From positions 1-22,113 of IMG/VR virus record IMGVR_UViG_3300046370_000546: a DNA stretch of 22,113 nt; one strand, written 5' to 3'. The translations under genes and the position numbers were made by a program. Each line of letters begins with the position of its first letter. Position 1 is the first letter of the stretch. Shown here in pieces: positions 2 to 13,299 of this stretch. This DNA is from a virus. Below the pieces are notes generated by a model. The model did not search any database. It saw only the letters and a program-made list of their open reading frames with translations, and was not told the origin of the DNA.

Positions 2-2137
2 GAAGGAGTAACTGCAGGAACCGGCTTATCTGGTGGAGGAACCTCAGGTAGTGTTACTCTAAATGTTGCAGATTTAACAGTTTCAGAGTTTGCGGCTAAC
101 TCTATACAATTAAGTTCTGAGTCTTTTGCAAACAATGATACATCTCTAATGACTTCTGCTGCAATTGAAGATAAGATTTTAAGCTATGGATACTCTACTT
201 CCGGCGGAGGAATAGCCTCTGTAGTTGCAGATACCACTCCACAGCTTGGAGGTTCTTTAGATGTAAACGGACAAAGCATTGTTTCTGTTAGTAATGGAAA
301 TATTTCGATAACTCCAAATGGCTCAGGAAAAATCATACTTGATGGATTAAGTTGGCCTACTGCGGATGGAACTGCAAATTATGTATTAAAAACAGATGGA
401 TCTGGTAATTTAAGCTGGACTGCACAAAGTAGCGGAGGAGCTTCTGTAACAGTTTCAGATAGCGCTCCCGGCAGCCCCTCATCTGGAGATCTATGGTGGA
501 GCTCCTCTTCTCTAACACCCTATATTTACTATGCGGATGGGAGTAGTAATCAATGGGTTGAATTTGCGAATCCTGACTCAGGAACAGTATCGGGCGTTTT
601 ATCGGACTTAACAAATGTAAGTACTACAAGTCCTAGCGCGGGCCAGGTGCTAAAGTGGAGTGGAAGTGAGTGGGCTCCCGCTGCGGACAATGAAGGCTCC
701 GGCGGAGGAACTCTTACAGCAACCGCAAGCGGCACCCTTGCAAATGGAGATTTAGTTGTAGTAAACTCCGATGGTAGTGTAAGTGCAGTATCGCAAACAT
801 CAAGCAGTGCAGGCGTAGGATCTGCAACTGTATTTGAGTCTGCTTCTACTTCCTATACTGCAGCTACGTTTGACTCAAATTCCGGAAAAGTTGTAATTGC
901 ATATGAAGACGTTGGAAACTCACAATATGGAACAGCCGTGGTAGGAACAGTATCGGGTAATAGTATTAGTTTTGGTACTCCAGTTGTTTTTGAAAGTGCA
1001 GAAGTAAGCTATGTTACAGCCACATTTGACTCAAACTCAAATAAAGTTGTGATTTTTTATAGAGATCACGGTAATTCAAATTATGGGACAGCGGTTGTTG
1101 GAACAGTTTCTGGTACAAGTATTAGTTTTGGCACTCCTGTCAATGTAGCTTCGCACAATCCCTCAGATACTGCAATTACATTTGATTCTACCAATAATAA
1201 AATTGTAGTTGCTTATAGGAATAATACTGTTTCTAGCTATGGAACAGCCGTGGTAGGAACAGTATCGGGTAATAGTATTAGTTTTGGTACTCCAGTTAAT
1301 TACTATACAGGAATTAGTCTTCGTAATGCTCTTGCATTTGATTCTAGCAACGGTAAAGTTATAGTTGCTTACAGGGCTCACTCAAATAGTGGGCACGGGA
1401 GAGCACAAGTAGGAACAGTATCGGGTACAAGTATTAGTTTCGGCTCATCAGTAACCTATAATTCTTCAGGAGCTAATTTAGAGTATAATAATGCGGTATT
1501 TGATTCTGCTAATAATAAAGTAGTTATTATGTACAGGGATTTAGCAAACAGCTATTTTGGGGCTGCTATTGTAGGAACAGTTTCTGGTACAACTATTAGT
1601 TTTGGCAGTGAAGCTACGTTTAACAATGCAACCACAAATCACATATCTGCTCATTTTGATTCAGGAGCAAATAAAGTTATAATTGCTTATCAGGATGAAG
1701 GAAATTCTAGTTACGGGAATGCTATAGCAGGAACAGTTTCTGGTACCAGTATTAGTTTTGGCACAGAAATTACATTAGAGAGTGCAAATAGTTCTTTTTT
1801 TGGATCTACCTTTGATACAGTTTCAAATAAATCTGTGTTTTCTTATGTAGACGGAGGAAATTCAAATTATGGAACTGCTGTTGTAGGACAACTTGCTGCT
1901 TCGAGTTCAACAAATCTTACAGGAACCAACTATATAGGAATAGCAGATGCAGCATATTCAGACTCTGCTACTGCTACAATTCAAATAGTTGGTTCAGTAG
2001 ATGATGCTCAATCCGGGCTAACGGCTGGTCAAGCTTACTATGTACAAACTGATGGTACACTTTCAACATCTGCAGATTCTCCTTCAGTATTCGCAGGAAC
2101 TGCAGTATCTGCAACTAAATTAATTGTAAAAGGATAA
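2..2137 (+). CDS. Tail fibre/adhesin with seven-unit propeller-like module (5' truncated)
   Basis: The frame is open from the first bases of the window, so the start lies upstream; 711 residues are visible. The N-terminal visible part (SGGGTSGSVTLNV, then DTTPQLGGSLDVNG and SGKIILDGLSWP) is typical of phage tail-fibre or tip proteins that carry host-binding modules. From base 719 comes a module with seven repeats centred on FDS..NKVVIAY..GNS.YGTA.VGTVSG.SISFG. The FDS-type codons begin at 869, 1025, 1181, 1337, 1499, 1655 and 1811, a period of 52 codons (54 once). Seven Gly/Ser-rich beta units fit a seven-bladed propeller; that fold is inferred. The end (TNYIGIADAAYSDSATATIQ to KLIVKG) is a conserved fibre tail repeated in the third gene. 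Likely role: virion receptor binding. No catalytic motif was recognised. Confidence 0.8.
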   Translation, partial: EGVTAGTGLSGGGTSGSVTLNVADLTVSEFAANSIQLSSESFANNDTSLMTSAAIEDKILSYGYSTSGGGIASVVADTTPQLGGSLDVNGQSIVSVSNGNISITPNGSGKIILDGLSWPTADGTANYVLKTDGSGNLSWTAQSSGGASVTVSDSAPGSPSSGDLWWSSSSLTPYIYYADGSSNQWVEFANPDSGTVSGVLSDLTNVSTTSPSAGQVLKWSGSEWAPAADNEGSGGGTLTATASGTLANGDLVVVNSDGSVSAVSQTSSSAGVGSATVFESASTSYTAATFDSNSGKVVIAYEDVGNSQYGTAVVGTVSGNSISFGTPVVFESAEVSYVTATFDSNSNKVVIFYRDHGNSNYGTAVVGTVSGTSISFGTPVNVASHNPSDTAITFDSTNNKIVVAYRNNTVSSYGTAVVGTVSGNSISFGTPVNYYTGISLRNALAFDSSNGKVIVAYRAHSNSGHGRAQVGTVSGTSISFGSSVTYNSSGANLEYNNAVFDSANNKVVIMYRDLANSYFGAAIVGTVSGTTISFGSEATFNNATTNHISAHFDSGANKVIIAYQDEGNSSYGNAIAGTVSGTSISFGTEITLESANSSFFGSTFDTVSNKSVFSYVDGGNSNYGTAVVGQLAASSSTNLTGTNYIGIADAAYSDSATATIQIVGSVDDAQSGLTAGQAYYVQTDGTLSTSADSPSVFAGTAVSATKLIVKG
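926..985 (+). repeat. 60-bp direct repeat, first copy
   Basis: These 60 bases encode the YGTAVVGTVSGNSISFGTPV part of a repeat unit. They recur without a mismatch at 1238-1297, exactly 312 bases (two 52-codon units) downstream. Other units differ at many synonymous sites. Confidence 0.85.
1238..1297 (+). repeat. 60-bp direct repeat, second copy
   Basis: This is a perfect copy of 926-985, in the same reading frame and the same position within its repeat unit. Flanking bases differ on both sides. Confidence 0.85.
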
Positions 2138-2143
2138 AAAATT

Positions 2144-2398
2144 ATGAAAACAATAATCAGGAACGAAAATAATTGGTCTCTATATATTTTTGAGGACAGC
2201 GTATCTCTATCTGTTAACTCAGACTCTATAACTACTCCTAACTTCATTATTGGAGACTTAAACTCGAGTAATGTTACTGTAGTGGAGAATGTTACACCCC
2301 CTAGTGACTGGACCGGCTGTAAATATATTTATGCCGATTCAACGTGGACATTAAATTCGGAGTGGACTGAGCCATCGAGTGAACAGATAGGAGGATAA
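2144..2398 (+). CDS. Small conserved protein between fibre genes
   Basis: This 84-residue protein starts at an ATG preceded by AAGGA about nine bases upstream, six bases after the fibre gene's stop. It has no signal peptide or membrane segment. The C-terminal half (PSDWTGCKYIYADSTWTLN) is rich in Trp and Tyr and resembles short proteins that sit beside fibre genes in marine phages. A role as a fibre accessory or assembly factor is suggested only by position; no domain was recognised. Its last codons contain the ribosome binding site of the next gene, so the two are likely translated together. Confidence 0.7.
   Translation: MKTIIRNENNWSLYIFEDSVSLSVNSDSITTPNFIIGDLNSSNVTVVENVTPPSDWTGCKYIYADSTWTLNSEWTEPSSEQIGG
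2389..2394 (+). promoter_or_regulatory. Strong ribosome binding site for second fibre gene
   Basis: A perfect AGGAGG lies five bases before the ATG at 2400, inside the last codons of the 84-residue gene. It supports that start codon and high expression of a structural protein. Confidence 0.8.
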
Positions 2399-2399
2399 A

Positions 2400-4994
2400 A
2401 TGGCAGTTAATTTTACAGATAGCCCGAGTAATGGAGCTACAATAACAGCAGGCGGCAGAACTTATACCTATAGTAGTAGTACTTCCACCTGGGAGATCAC
2501 TGCTACTACAGCAGCGAATCCTAGTATTACAGCAGTTGCAAGCGGCACCCTTGCAAATGGAGATATGGTTGTAGTAAACTCTGATGGTACTGTAAGTGCA
2601 GTTACACAGACAGGAAGTAGTGCTGGTACTGGTAGTGCTACTGTATTTGAATCAGATACCACCAGGTTTGCTAGAGCCGCGTTTGATTCAAACGCAAATA
2701 AAGTTGTAATTGCTTACTCACATACCAATAATTTTTATGGCTATGCAGTTGTAGGCACAGTATCTGGTAACAGTATTAGTTTTGGCACTCCAGTTGCATT
2801 TGCAAGTGCAAATACTCAAGAGATTGAAATTGTATTTGACTCAAATGCAAATAAAGTTGTAATTGGCTATAAAGATAGTGATAATAGCTCTTATGGAACT
2901 GCAATTGTAGGCACAGTGTCTGGTACAAGTATTAGTTTCGGAAGTGAAGTCGTATTTAATAGTGGAAATACTACAGAGTTAGCAGCTACATTTGACTCAA
3001 ACGCAAATAAAGTTGTATTTGCCTATAGAGATAGTGGCAATAATAGCTATGGAACTGCAATTGTAGGCACAGTATCTGGTAACAGTATTAGTTTTGGTAG
3101 CGAATATGTTTATTACTCTGGAATCAATCTTCGTACTGCACTTGGATTTGATTCAACTAATAATAAAGTTATAGTTGCTTATAGAGCACATTCAAATAGC
3201 GGGCACGGCAGAGCACAAGTAGGTACAATATCTGGAACAAGTATTAGTTTTGGTAGCTATGCTACTTTTAATACAGCAAATATAGAATATACACAAGTTG
3301 TACATGATTCGAGTAACGATAAAATTGTTGTTTTATATAGAGATGACGGAAACTCTACTCGGGGAACAGCAATTGTAGGTACAGTATCTGGAACAAGTAT
3401 TAGTTTTGGAAGTGAAACGGTATTTGAAACGGATGCCGCAAGTTATCTTTCAGCTCACTTTGCTTCAAATATAAATAAAATCGTAGTTGGTTATGAGGAC
3501 TCAGGAAACTCTAGTTATGGGACTGCAATAGCGGGTACTGTATCTGGTACAAGCATTAGTTTTGGTAGTCCAGTAGTTTATGCTAATAATGGCTCGATTT
3601 TTTACCAGGGAGGTACATTTGATTCAAATGAAGGAAAGTCAGTATTTGTTTATCAAGACGGGGGAAACTCTGATCGTGGAACGGCTGTTGTACTACAACT
3701 TGCTGATTCGAGTTCTACAAATCTTACAGCAAATAACTATATAGGAGTCTCCGATGCAGCTTATGCTAATTCTGCTACTGCCACAATTCAACTTATTGGC
3801 TCTGTAGACGATGCTCAGTCTGGGTTAACTCCTGGGCAGTCTCATTATATACAAAACGACGGTACACTCTCAACAAGTGCAGGGACTCCTTCAGTGTTAG
3901 CAGGAACCGCTATCTCAGCAACTAAGCTAATTGTAAAAGGCGAAATTGCGGCAGCTGCGGCAGCTGGGCTTCTAGTCAGCAGCAGCGGGGGTGTTACTAC
4001 ATATGCAAATATCGCAGCTCTTCCTTCTTCTGGAAATACTGCCGGAGATTTAGCTTTTGTAACGGATGTAAAAGCTTTTTATGGGTGGGACGGTACAGAG
4101 TGGGATAGAATTTTTAGTGGACAAAATATGCTTCCTGAGTTTACTACTAGTCCGGCGGCTAGCTATGATTTGGCTTTAGACGGAACAGCAACCACTGTTA
4201 CAGTAGCTGCTACAGATCCAGAAGGCTTTGCCATTACTTATAGTCATGATACTACCCCGGCTAACCAGGCTCAAGCTACAATTAGTCAAAGTGGGGGCAC
4301 ATTTACAGTAACTCCTAGTACTACTGCTTCTAATGCCGGAACATTTACAGCTAGATTTAAAGCTTTTGATGGGGTAAGAACCAATAGTGCTTCTTCAACG
4401 TTTTCACTAGCTTTCTATGAGTATGTAAATTGGACAACAACTAATAATTATTACAATAGCGGCTCAGGATGGCAATTAAATGATAATGGAAATAACATAG
4501 AGGTATATAATGCAGGCAACTTAGGAACCCTTTCTGCTACCCATACTACTTATACTATTGCTAATAGTCAATCAGGGCTTTCTAAAGTATATTATGAGTT
4601 TACAACTAACTCTTCTCAAGCATATTATAGCGGAGGTTTTATAAGTACTGCAAAGATTAACTCTGATCTTCATTTAAGAGATGTTACTACAAATACTACA
4701 GGACACTATGGAGGAGAGGGTTCTGCGAGCGGGGGAGCTACCTATTCTTTTATGCTTGATAGAAACACTAAAAAGTTACATTACTGGAAAAATGGAACCT
4801 ATGATTCAACAAGAAGTGGCGCACTGCCAAATGGAACATATTATGCAGCAATAGGTGATGGAGCTTCGGGTAATACTGCTTCATCTTCTACTAAAAGCAT
4901 AATTCGAGGCATAAACTCAAATGGAACGGCAACTTTTACATATAATCCCGATACGCTATGGAATAACTTAACTTCAGGACAACAAGGGCCTTAA
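2400..4994 (+). CDS. Tail fibre/adhesin: propeller module, Ig-like and SPRY-like domains
   Basis: This 864-residue protein starts at an ATG with an AGGAGG site. After a short N-terminus (NFTDSPSNGATITAGGRTYTY) comes the second propeller module, about residues 45-514, with FDS-type codons at 2682, 2835, 2991, 3147, 3303, 3459 and 3618; units 5 and 6 read HDS and FAS. Residues about 515-581 form a common fibre linker (AGDLAFVTDVKAFYGWDGTEW). Residues about 582-675 look Ig or cadherin-like (VAATDPEGFAITYSHD, FKAFDGVRT). The C-terminal part, about 676-850, resembles a SPRY/concanavalin-like fold (KVYYEFTTNS, FMLDRNTKKLHYWKNGTYD, YYAAIGDG). This is a modular receptor-binding protein, probably a tail fibre or spike. 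The propeller and SPRY calls are by eye. It ends 26 bases before the terminator. Confidence 0.8.
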   Translation: MAVNFTDSPSNGATITAGGRTYTYSSSTSTWEITATTAANPSITAVASGTLANGDMVVVNSDGTVSAVTQTGSSAGTGSATVFESDTTRFARAAFDSNANKVVIAYSHTNNFYGYAVVGTVSGNSISFGTPVAFASANTQEIEIVFDSNANKVVIGYKDSDNSSYGTAIVGTVSGTSISFGSEVVFNSGNTTELAATFDSNANKVVFAYRDSGNNSYGTAIVGTVSGNSISFGSEYVYYSGINLRTALGFDSTNNKVIVAYRAHSNSGHGRAQVGTISGTSISFGSYATFNTANIEYTQVVHDSSNDKIVVLYRDDGNSTRGTAIVGTVSGTSISFGSETVFETDAASYLSAHFASNINKIVVGYEDSGNSSYGTAIAGTVSGTSISFGSPVVYANNGSIFYQGGTFDSNEGKSVFVYQDGGNSDRGTAVVLQLADSSSTNLTANNYIGVSDAAYANSATATIQLIGSVDDAQSGLTPGQSHYIQNDGTLSTSAGTPSVLAGTAISATKLIVKGEIAAAAAAGLLVSSSGGVTTYANIAALPSSGNTAGDLAFVTDVKAFYGWDGTEWDRIFSGQNMLPEFTTSPAASYDLALDGTATTVTVAATDPEGFAITYSHDTTPANQAQATISQSGGTFTVTPSTTASNAGTFTARFKAFDGVRTNSASSTFSLAFYEYVNWTTTNNYYNSGSGWQLNDNGNNIEVYNAGNLGTLSATHTTYTIANSQSGLSKVYYEFTTNSSQAYYSGGFISTAKINSDLHLRDVTTNTTGHYGGEGSASGGATYSFMLDRNTKKLHYWKNGTYDSTRSGALPNGTYYAAIGDGASGNTASSSTKSIIRGINSNGTATFTYNPDTLWNNLTSGQQGP
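2532..3941 (+). repeat. Propeller module, copy B
   Basis: This is the paralogue of 719-2134, from AVASGTLANGDM to KLIVKG. Repeat 4 (YYSGINLRTAL, RAHSNSGHGRAQ) matches repeat 4 of copy A. The leader shares a stretch of DNA encoding SGTLANGD, and the tails are closely similar. Confidence 0.85.
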
Positions 4995-8994: not shown

Positions 8995-9430
8995 CTAAAA
9001 ATTCTACCTTTTCTTTGGTTAGCCACTCTTCTGCAAGCAGGACAAAACAGTTTAAGAAACATATAAACATATATTCTTCTGTTTTACTGGGCGGCTCTAC
9101 CGTTACTACAAAAACTGGTGATCTATTATATTTGAAAAACAGTAAAGGCTCTTGACTTCCTTGCTCTGCTTGTCTTTCTAGTTTTTTCCACCACTGTATT
9201 AAGTTATTAGTTTTACTTGCTGTAAATATTTTATCTGTAAGAGGAGACTCTGCGTAGTTCTTTACTTCTATGCAAAATTTATTTTTTGCATGAGGAACAT
9301 ATAAGTCTCCTTTTAAGTACTCAAGTGCGCCAGAGCTAGGAACTCTTTCGAACTGATGTCCAGTATGCTCTCGCAACATATCTCTTACGAGATACTCCCC
9401 CCTCGCCCCTTTTGCTCTTGAGTCTACCAC
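8984..9430 (-). CDS. PD-(D/E)XK nuclease, Holliday-junction-resolvase-like
   Basis: This 148-residue protein has the Hjc-like order of motifs: AKGARGEYLVRDMLR with E12, then RVPSSGALEYLKGD with D42, then FCIEVKN with E55 and K57. These are the metal-binding and catalytic residues of the PD-(D/E)XK fold. Archaeal resolvases share the KG...E, SG and D...E.K pattern, so cleavage of branched DNA is the best guess; other structure-specific or VRR-like nuclease roles are possible. The start is GTG at 9430, whose G base is also the last base of the SHMT stop TAG, with GGAG five bases upstream. It sits in a recombination cluster beside SbcCD and the FEN exonuclease, consistent with joint processing of replication intermediates. 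Confidence 0.82.
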   Translation of the reverse strand: MVDSRAKGARGEYLVRDMLREHTGHQFERVPSSGALEYLKGDLYVPHAKNKFCIEVKNYAESPLTDKIFTASKTNNLIQWWKKLERQAEQGSQEPLLFFKYNRSPVFVVTVEPPSKTEEYMFICFLNCFVLLAEEWLTKEKVEFLDGI

Positions 9431-10575
9431 TACTTCTCCAATATCTCGATCATCATACCCGCCAAGTCTTGAAACCAGTAGTTAGATCTATTTTTTGTTG
9501 TTTCTGCTGCCGTACCAATTCTTATACCGCTTGTTTCAATAAAATTACGAGGATCATTGGGCACACCATTTTTATTTACAGTAATTCCATTCTCTTCAAG
9601 TCTATCTGCGGCTTCTTTTCCACTGATGGTTTTATCACTTAAATCAAGAAGAAGTAGATGACTATCAGTTCCTCCCGTAATTACGTTATATCCTGCGTCA
9701 GTAAATACTTTTGACATTGTACGAGCATTCTTAATTACATTAAATATATAATGCCCAAAAGAAGGTTGTAATGCCTCTGAGTAGCACTGTGCTTTTGCAG
9801 CAATCATATTCATAAGAGGTCCGCCCTGTGTTCCAGGAAAAATAGCACTATTTATTTTTTTAGTATAATTTGGATTATTCCAAAGAATCATACCACCTCT
9901 TGGTCCTCGTAGTGTCTTATGAGTAGTGCTTGTAACTACATCGGCAAAAGGAATCGGACTCGGATACATTCTTGCTGCGACTAGCCCACTGTAGTGCGCC
10001 ATATCACACAAAAGATAGGCATTTACTTTTTTTGCAATATCTCTAAATTTACCCCAATCTATATGACGAGAGTAAGCACTTGCACCTGCTACAATCATAT
10101 CCACATTCTGCTCTAAGGCAACCCTTTCTACTTGTTCGTAGTCAATCCAGCCGTCTTCTTTTACACCATAAGAGTGTGCTTCATATACCTTACCGCTTAA
10201 AGTTGGTTTTGCACCATGGCTCAAATGACCTCCACTAGCTAAGTCCATTCCAAGAATTTTATCTCCTGGCTTTAGAAATGCTTGATATACTGCTGTATTT
10301 GCATTGACCCCGCTATGGGGCTGAACATTAGAGTATGAACAGCCATATAGTTTTTGAACTAATTCTTGTGCATATCTTTCTACAGCATCCATGTACTCGC
10401 AACCATTATAGTAACGAGCACCAGGATAACCTTCAGCGTACTTATTAGTAAAAACACTACCGCAAAGCTCTTTTACAGCCTCACTTGCAAAGTTCTCACT
10501 TGCTATCAGCTCTATTTGATTGCTCTGCCTACACTCTTCGTTAAAAAGAATTAGTTGTAATTTTTCATCTACCAT
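9430..10575 (-). CDS. glyA: Serine hydroxymethyltransferase
   Basis: This PLP enzyme converts serine and tetrahydrofolate to glycine and 5,10-methylene-tetrahydrofolate, the one-carbon donor for thymidylate synthesis. The 381 residues hold the family hallmarks: ELIASENF (21-29), YAEGYPGARYYNGCEY (46-61), HSGVNAN (87-93), CDMAHYSGL with D191 and H194, and the PLP lysine K220 in TSTTHKTLRGPRGG. It is shorter than the usual bacterial enzyme of about 417 residues, mainly at both ends, but no active-site block is missing. The ATG overlaps the end of the SbcC-like gene by seven bases. No thymidylate synthase is in the window. Likely role: boosting methylene-folate for phage nucleotide synthesis. 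Confidence 0.95.
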   Translation of the reverse strand: MVDEKLQLILFNEECRQSNQIELIASENFASEAVKELCGSVFTNKYAEGYPGARYYNGCEYMDAVERYAQELVQKLYGCSYSNVQPHSGVNANTAVYQAFLKPGDKILGMDLASGGHLSHGAKPTLSGKVYEAHSYGVKEDGWIDYEQVERVALEQNVDMIVAGASAYSRHIDWGKFRDIAKKVNAYLLCDMAHYSGLVAARMYPSPIPFADVVTSTTHKTLRGPRGGMILWNNPNYTKKINSAIFPGTQGGPLMNMIAAKAQCYSEALQPSFGHYIFNVIKNARTMSKVFTDAGYNVITGGTDSHLLLLDLSDKTISGKEAADRLEENGITVNKNGVPNDPRNFIETSGIRIGTAAETTKNRSNYWFQDLAGMMIEILEK

Positions 10576-12371: not shown

Positions 12372-13299
12372 TATATGTCCCCAAAATATTACTTATTTTA
12401 TCTTCTGGAAGCTCTAAAATATATTTTAGGTACTCTACCAGCTCTTCGTCTAAAGTCATATCCTTTTCAATAATTAAGGATGCTTCAGAATTTCTTTTTA
12501 CAACTTTCTTGTCAAGTAACTCTGTGTTTTCTACTGAAGCTAGCTCTTGTATATCTCCTTCTATTTCATAGATTGTGTGATGATAATTAGTGGGTATCAT
12601 ATCTGCTGGATTAGTTACTGTTTTTCTTAGTAACTGAGGCAGAGTAAAAGGCCACCAGTCCCACGACCAATCTTTGGGATTGATAAGAAGGTAGCCTGTT
12701 TCAACCTCTTGTCTATGAAAAGAAGTGGTCATTGGACTACCTGGATATACAATATTTCTTTGTGTGTTACTATGTGCGTGTAAATCTCCTGCAAACACTA
12801 CAGGAAAATCAGCAAAACGATCTAGATCTACCTCTGGTTTTACATGAGGAGGTATTTCGCCCCTCACATGAGTGAATAGAGGTTGTTCTGTACTAAAATG
12901 CTCTATGCTGTCTTTTCTGTGTAAATCGGCATAGGGCAGTACACCAAAACCTAAATCTTCATCAACATAAGAGATATCAACCACATTTACTAATGGGTTG
13001 ATATCTCTTGATGCTTGTTTAAGTTGTGAAAAAAATGTTCTATTCTTACGAGTTGCTTCATGGTTACCGTCATATACTAGAGTGGGCTTCTTTACCTTTC
13101 GTATAAAAGAAAAGTATAGAGAAAGCTCCTCCATTGTAGGTATGCGATCAAACAAATCTCCTCCAATGATGTGCATGTCACAACTCTCTGATTGTTGATG
13201 CACTTGGTCAAAAAATTCGTTATATCTTTTGGTTGCCCACTCAACTGGGACATTCTTTTGTCCCAGTTTAATGTGCCAGTCAGCAGTAAATAAAATCAT
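12340..13299 (-). CDS. SbcD/Mre11-like nuclease (T4 gp47 type)
   Basis: This 319-residue calcineurin-like phosphoesterase is the nuclease half of the SbcCD complex. Metal-binding motifs are in the family order: D7 and H9 (TADWHIKLG), D48 (GGDLFDR), N79-H80 (YDGNHE), H144 (FTHVRG), H174 and H176 (AGDLHAHSN). After about residue 230 comes a less conserved region that should contact the ATPase arms. Its start codon shares ATGA with the stop of the ssDNA-binding protein gene, and its end overlaps the ATPase gene. Expected activity is Mn-dependent nuclease on DNA ends and hairpins, controlled by the ATPase partner. Confidence 0.94.
   Translation of the reverse strand: MILFTADWHIKLGQKNVPVEWATKRYNEFFDQVHQQSESCDMHIIGGDLFDRIPTMEELSLYFSFIRKVKKPTLVYDGNHEATRKNRTFFSQLKQASRDINPLVNVVDISYVDEDLGFGVLPYADLHRKDSIEHFSTEQPLFTHVRGEIPPHVKPEVDLDRFADFPVVFAGDLHAHSNTQRNIVYPGSPMTTSFHRQEVETGYLLINPKDWSWDWWPFTLPQLLRKTVTNPADMIPTNYHHTIYEIEGDIQELASVENTELLDKKVVKRNSEASLIIEKDMTLDEELVEYLKYILELPEDKISNILGTYNDYAQKAQVE

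Follow-up and report, generated by a model that had tools for sequence, protein, structure and literature searches.

Two neighbouring genes of an uncultivated virus carry a predicted seven-bladed propeller of a new sequence family, probably for host recognition

Introduction

In the passages of PMC4901313 and PMC6115969 that deal with it, PhiKZ gp131C (PDB 4GBF) is a seven-bladed propeller and peripheral tail protein with a proposed receptor-binding or cell-degrading role. The two virus genes analyzed here resemble gp131C, as so presented, in that a (predicted) seven-bladed propeller is placed at the end of a tail protein, but their family has no sequence match to it, their carrier domain and tandem arrays are not described for gp131C in those passages, and 4GBF was not among the 50 fold-search matches listed. 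Phage phi11 Gp45 (PDB 5EFV) is a trimeric receptor-binding protein that likewise bears a propeller, preceded by a stem and followed by further domains, and has a putative GlcNAc site; it differs in its five blades and its Gram-positive host, and gave no match in the sequence searches. A closed ring of seven blades is also found in the lectins PLL, PHL, and BP39L. In lectins of the PLL type the sugars bind between the blades, and the repeats carry a W-motif with a sugar-stacking tryptophan (PMC6943638). Identity to these lectins is about 10%, and propellers A and B of the present locus contain no tryptophan, so that the W-motif is absent and they cannot be counted among the PLL proteins.

The whole module is matched, at 25% identity, by a propeller protein of Lentibacter phage vB_LenP_ICBM2 that is uncharacterised, strongly diverged and annotated only as a hypothetical protein. 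Its gene sits among tail-assembly chaperone genes, in a Cobavirus region described as encoding tail fibres, connectors, and tail assembly (PMC6775973).

Organization of the locus

The window, by which we mean the whole stretch of DNA analyzed, is a virus record of 22,113 bases. Three plus-strand genes occupy its left 5 kb, namely gene A (2–2137), which is open at position 2 and runs off the left edge, an 84-residue ORF and gene B (2400–4994), whereas the minus strand of the right part holds replication genes encoding DNA polymerase, a DnaB-like helicase, an SbcD-like endonuclease, a PhoH-like protein, and ribonucleotide reductase. The refined limits of the propeller modules are 710–2134 in gene A and 2523–3941 in gene B, each module consisting of a propeller set between the leader and tail halves of a putative small carrier domain (Table 1). 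The fibre part of gene A matched PHROG 9729 (E = 2.7e-17), annotated as tail fiber protein, and, at E = 1.1e-8, PHROG 677 (baseplate wedge tail fiber connector); gene B gave no fibre-family match in the PHROG search. The propeller thus lies on a tail-fibre or baseplate protein through the fused fibre in gene A, and by context in gene B. The 84-residue ORF also stands behind the A-type propeller genes of sister phages; a role as a fibre-assembly helper is possible.

Table 1. Features of the propeller genes, in window coordinates
Feature	Positions	Strand	Basis
C-terminal part of long tail-fibre protein, joined to propeller A	2–709	+	PHROG 9729, PHROG 677; alignment with L003 fibre
Gly-rich junction	688–709	+	L003 fibre match ends at 687, match to L003 stand-alone propeller gene begins at 699 (blastn)
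Carrier domain, leader half, A copy	710–825	+	A/B alignment; strands predicted in the equivalent part of B
Propeller A, seven units	826–1900	+	residues 227–584 counted from the ATG at 149
Carrier domain, tail half, A copy, then stop	1901–2137	+	alignment and tail-domain searches
84-residue ORF	2144–2398	+	homologue at L003 7435–7674; similar stretch in G001 behind the propeller gene
Gene B head (MAVNFTDSPSNGATITAGGRTYTY...)	2400–2522	+	common to stand-alone sister-phage genes with and without propeller
Carrier domain, leader half, B copy	2523–2639	+	A/B alignment; structure model
Propeller B, seven units, predicted closed seven-bladed propeller	2640–3704	+	residues 81–435
Carrier domain, tail half, B copy	3705–3941	+	alignment and tail-domain searches
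Gene B linker domain	3985–4412	+	mostly strands, largely confident model; 70–91% to propeller-less L185 genes
Gene B C-terminal tip	4413–4994	+	close matches in two sister phages only; pLDDT mostly under 50

Repeat units and their correspondence

Propeller A is built from units of 50, 52, 52, 52, 54, 52, and 46+ residues and propeller B from units of 49, 52, 52, 52, 52, 52, and 46+ residues. An earlier sequence-only reading of the window had proposed exactly seven repeats in both large plus-strand proteins, which these counts bear out; the period of 51–54 codons that it gave is roughly right and slightly too narrow, the units spanning 49–54 residues with a last unit of 46+. The two modules align end to end with few small gaps at 68% protein and 71.7% DNA identity. 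The leader and tail are indeed shared, at about 78% identity in the module alignment, for which the term "near-identical" had been generous.

The same reading had assigned a private signature to the fourth unit and, from it, a one-to-one correspondence of the units. Both points were upheld. RAHSNSGHGRAQ is present in unit 4 of A and of B and in no other unit, and unit 4 is the most similar A/B pair (79% protein, 77.6% DNA). The string also occurs in the sister phage L003, with a near-match (RAHSNSGRGRAQ) in G001; since the blade-4 consensus of the family lacks it, it is a marker of this lineage alone. Pairing the units of A and B by position was the best among all 5040 permutations, with a mean identity of 0.64 between units at the same position and 0.49 between units at different positions. 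A tree of the 14 units, which had been suggested as a check, paired A4/B4, A5/B5, A6/B6, and A7/B7 by position, left units 1–3 without a resolved pairing and showed no grouping of units by gene.

Predicted fold

AlphaFold2 was run on module B with an alignment of 58 sequences (B and 57 relatives) and gave a model with a pLDDT of 92.7 and a pTM of 0.80, in which the module is predicted to be a closed ring of seven four-stranded blades. The best structural match was Escherichia coli YncE (Z = 32.3, 2.6 Å over 306 residues), which is 9% identical and, as a cellular protein, has no relation to phage tails; next came BP39L, PLL, and PHL, all seven-bladed lectins, with Z of ∼30 over ∼310 residues (2.5–2.8 Å). 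The closed β-propeller anticipated from the number of repeats is thus supported by the prediction for B, and module A is taken to share this fold on the strength of the 68% identity and the same unit count. The strands predicted in unit 3 give the strand order D-A-B-C. The C-terminal part of gene B is also predicted to be folded in its linker, which is mostly strands and modeled with confidence over much of its length, whereas the tip has a pLDDT mostly under 50. This C-terminal part may resemble SPRY domains; a SPRY family search, which gave no match in the window and none in any control genome either, speaks neither for nor against this.

A widespread sequence family

No named family had been known to the earlier reader for this repeat, and none was found in the libraries searched: among the Pfam, NCBIfam, PHROG, and PDB sequence families none covers the repeat, and only short low-complexity matches were returned. 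Pfam matches to Cyclophil_like2, Agenet, and CPSase were set aside as short low-complexity stretches within the repeats. The PDB profile search returned antibody light chains alone, at E over 0.1, and no chain that matches the family; two sequence strings of the unit had no occurrence in the literature searched, and a Collar-domain search of four relatives' records gave no match. As a single-sequence query of IMG/VR, module B alone found nothing, whereas an alignment of A and B used as the query found at least 451 relatives of the module.

Runs of three or more units were counted in 79 fetched loci and the window. Seven units make up 161 of the 184 runs and fourteen make up a further 8, and a tail-domain search with a query free of any propeller unit found exactly seven units preceding the tail in 57 of 67 contigs. 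Such clustering at multiples of seven is expected if the units close into a ring. Of 70 contigs, 45 contain two or more modules, with a maximum of six in one contig. At L024:763–11847 six genes of seven units each stand in tandem on one contig, and at L191:3580–8937 a single 1786-residue ORF holds 21 units, equal to three successive propellers.

Relatives, mostly of seven units, are also carried by bacterial and archaeal metagenome-assembled genomes (MAGs), and those of bacterial MAGs show that the propeller also exists outside phages. Three of the bacterial ones (L092, L095, and L091) combine seven units with a LruC domain or a type 9 secretion sorting domain. Taken together, the repeat is a new and widespread sequence family that belongs to a known kind of phage adhesin.

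Variability on one face

Loop sides were deduced from the strand order, that is from topology and not from measurement on coordinates. On this basis the D-A loop (columns 7–9) and the B-C loop (columns 31–35) lie on one side, and the A-B (columns 19–22) and C-D (columns 46–47) loops on the other. The propeller face with the D-A and B-C loops is usually the ligand-binding one. Within-blade entropy peaks at columns 9, 11–13, 29, 31, and 35 and reaches its minimum at the opposite ends of the strands, and across the family the D-A and B-C loops are two to four times as variable as those of the opposite face.

The same asymmetry is seen in pairwise comparisons. In 15 independent close pairs the D-A/B-C side carries 0.234 changes per site against 0.090 on the other side (0.234 against 0.058 if the strand ends are included), and 13 of the 15 pairs differ in this direction; one of the two remaining pairs is A against L003 (0.07 on the variable side and 0.12 on the other). 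Paralogues within a contig show 0.70 against 0.35, with the bias present in 131 of 131 pairs. Between A and B themselves the difference is weak if just the loops are compared (0.50 against 0.38), and it becomes clear only on inclusion of the strand ends (0.56 against 0.22). The suggestion that A and B have two receptor specificities would fit this one-sided variability of the family.

Duplication, fusion, and exchange among sister phages

L003 is a close sister of the present virus, with a neighbouring nrdB stretch that is 96.5% identical, and has one stand-alone propeller gene, with 95% identity to A in the propeller. That gene also aligns with gene B from head through tail domain (window 2388–3940 to L003 5845–7424, 71%); its head starts MPVNFTDSPSNG, and three genes of the sister phage L185 begin alike. 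Because the single L003 gene aligns with B including the head, the whole gene (head and propeller) was probably duplicated, and not the module alone. The block-wise copying proposed earlier therefore holds in broad terms only, the more so as a sister phage has a mosaic copy. The dS of 0.81 between A and B, against 0.10 between A and L003, places the duplication before the split of the window from L003.

Positions 1–687 of the window match the L003 fibre at 82%, and from 699 the match is to the L003 stand-alone gene at 94.5%. Propeller A hence sits on the fibre, to which it was probably joined after the duplication; fibre-propeller fusions of a like kind are found in about ten other contigs. 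The N-terminal parts of A and B differ, which leaves the idea of a heteromeric fibre of the two unsupported. Both copies are under constraint, with dN/dS of about 0.26 for A against L003 and 0.33 for A against B, values of purifying and not of positive selection.

In G001 a gene with the B-type linker and tip (∼90%) has blades 2–3 mostly nearer to A, the first two 26-residue windows being 96% identical to A and 54% and 73% identical to B; by its sequence, this propeller gene is an A/B mosaic. It is broken into two reading frames at G001:3121–3129, either by a sequencing error or by a real break. L185 has three genes that combine the B-type head with the B-type linker but lack a propeller. The region is, as these comparisons indicate, rebuilt often, with exchange, fusion, loss or mosaicism of its parts among sister phages.

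The carrier domain also seems to take propellers of unrelated sequence. Leader and tail flank an SBBP-type propeller in L116 (L116:1498–3222), and the tail half recurs behind an FG-GAP propeller in L172 (L172:1–1197). A search of isolated phages with the leader and tail joined and the propeller removed gave Marine virus AG-345-O18 as its sole match. The L003 fibre contains a deeply diverged propeller-like region with a like tail (hhalign probability 97.9%, E = 5.6e-13). As the window begins just past the matching point of this fibre, the viral DNA upstream of the window probably encodes a third propeller. The propeller-like region of the fibre is 85% identical between L003:1183–2682 and L185:3838–5328, two sister phages with widely different distal genes.

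Discussion

We consider it likely that the two genes, at the end of the tail-fibre region, code for adhesins (host-recognition proteins) in which the propeller is a replaceable receptor-binding cassette, and that they arose by duplication of a whole gene followed by divergence. Three lines of evidence agree on the host-recognition role: the fibre context, the duplication and swapping of the genes, and the one-sided variability. In each protein a closed seven-bladed propeller would be placed between the two halves of the carrier domain, with the B-C and D-A loops forming a single variable face in contact with the host surface, and the opposite face and the strands conserved to hold the fold. 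Once the propeller gene had been duplicated whole, the copies could diverge, the main fibre gaining copy A as its tip and copy B staying separate with a head, linker, and tip of its own. The propeller ligand may well be a glycan, a guess made by analogy with the lectin-like fold. Virion location, trimeric assembly, ligand, and the two specificities are points that we infer.

The propellers might instead be enzymes of a glycan-cleaving, sialidase-like kind and not pure binders. Several sialidases are among the Foldseek matches, and we take the unit motif D-x-G-N-S-x-Y to recall, faintly, an Asp-box; compared with S/T-x-D-x-G-x-T-W, the unit consensus YRDGGNSNYG is without the tryptophan, and a sialidase Pfam match is absent while the structural matches are present. 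This reading is unlikely, given that the probable active face is the most variable part, that its few conserved residues repeat in each blade as turn residues with no single catalytic set, and that the top Z-scores go to YncE and lectins. A mainly structural role without host contact, like that of the seven-bladed nozzle domain of SU10, is distinctly improbable: one would expect a nozzle to be conserved and present in a single copy, whereas the module is fused to a fibre here, stands in up to six tandem genes in L024, is missing from the stand-alone genes of L185, and varies on one face. Propellers are nevertheless contained in short-tail nozzles (SU10, PMC9509320; P-SCSP1u, PMC10575957).

The fusion of the fibre to propeller A could also be an assembly chimera, the real virus having ordinary stand-alone propeller genes, as the jump in identity to L003 falls exactly at the Gly-rich junction and this very junction was found in no other contig searched. 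The reading frame is, however, open across the junction, and the like fusions in other contigs argue further against an artifact, which we regard as very unlikely.

Beyond these two adhesin genes, a wider reading can be put forward tentatively, and we hold it possible without favouring it: that uncultivated viruses have a widespread cassette system in which a split carrier domain accepts at least three sequence kinds of interchangeable propeller, in one to six copies per contig, and in which a single variable face, diversified by duplication, recombination, and tip swapping, would provide a single phage with a repertoire of specificities for receptors. For most uncultivated viruses the hosts and receptors have yet to be identified, and the adhesin family offers a handle on them, being detectable by profile, with a repeat that can be counted, a variable and predicted binding face usable as a specificity fingerprint, and modules that could be expressed for ligand finding. 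The window and its relatives also illustrate how tail-tip genes are rebuilt in sister phages by duplication, fusion, and swapping.

Two observations concern the replication part of the window. A 381-residue protein encoded at 9430–10575 on the minus strand, near the ribonucleotide reductase genes, matched PHROG 9968 (methyltransferase, E = 1.3e-161), and we take it to resemble serine hydroxymethyltransferase. Within the SbcD-like gene, positions 12969–13009 form an imperfect palindrome of ∼41 bases (86%).
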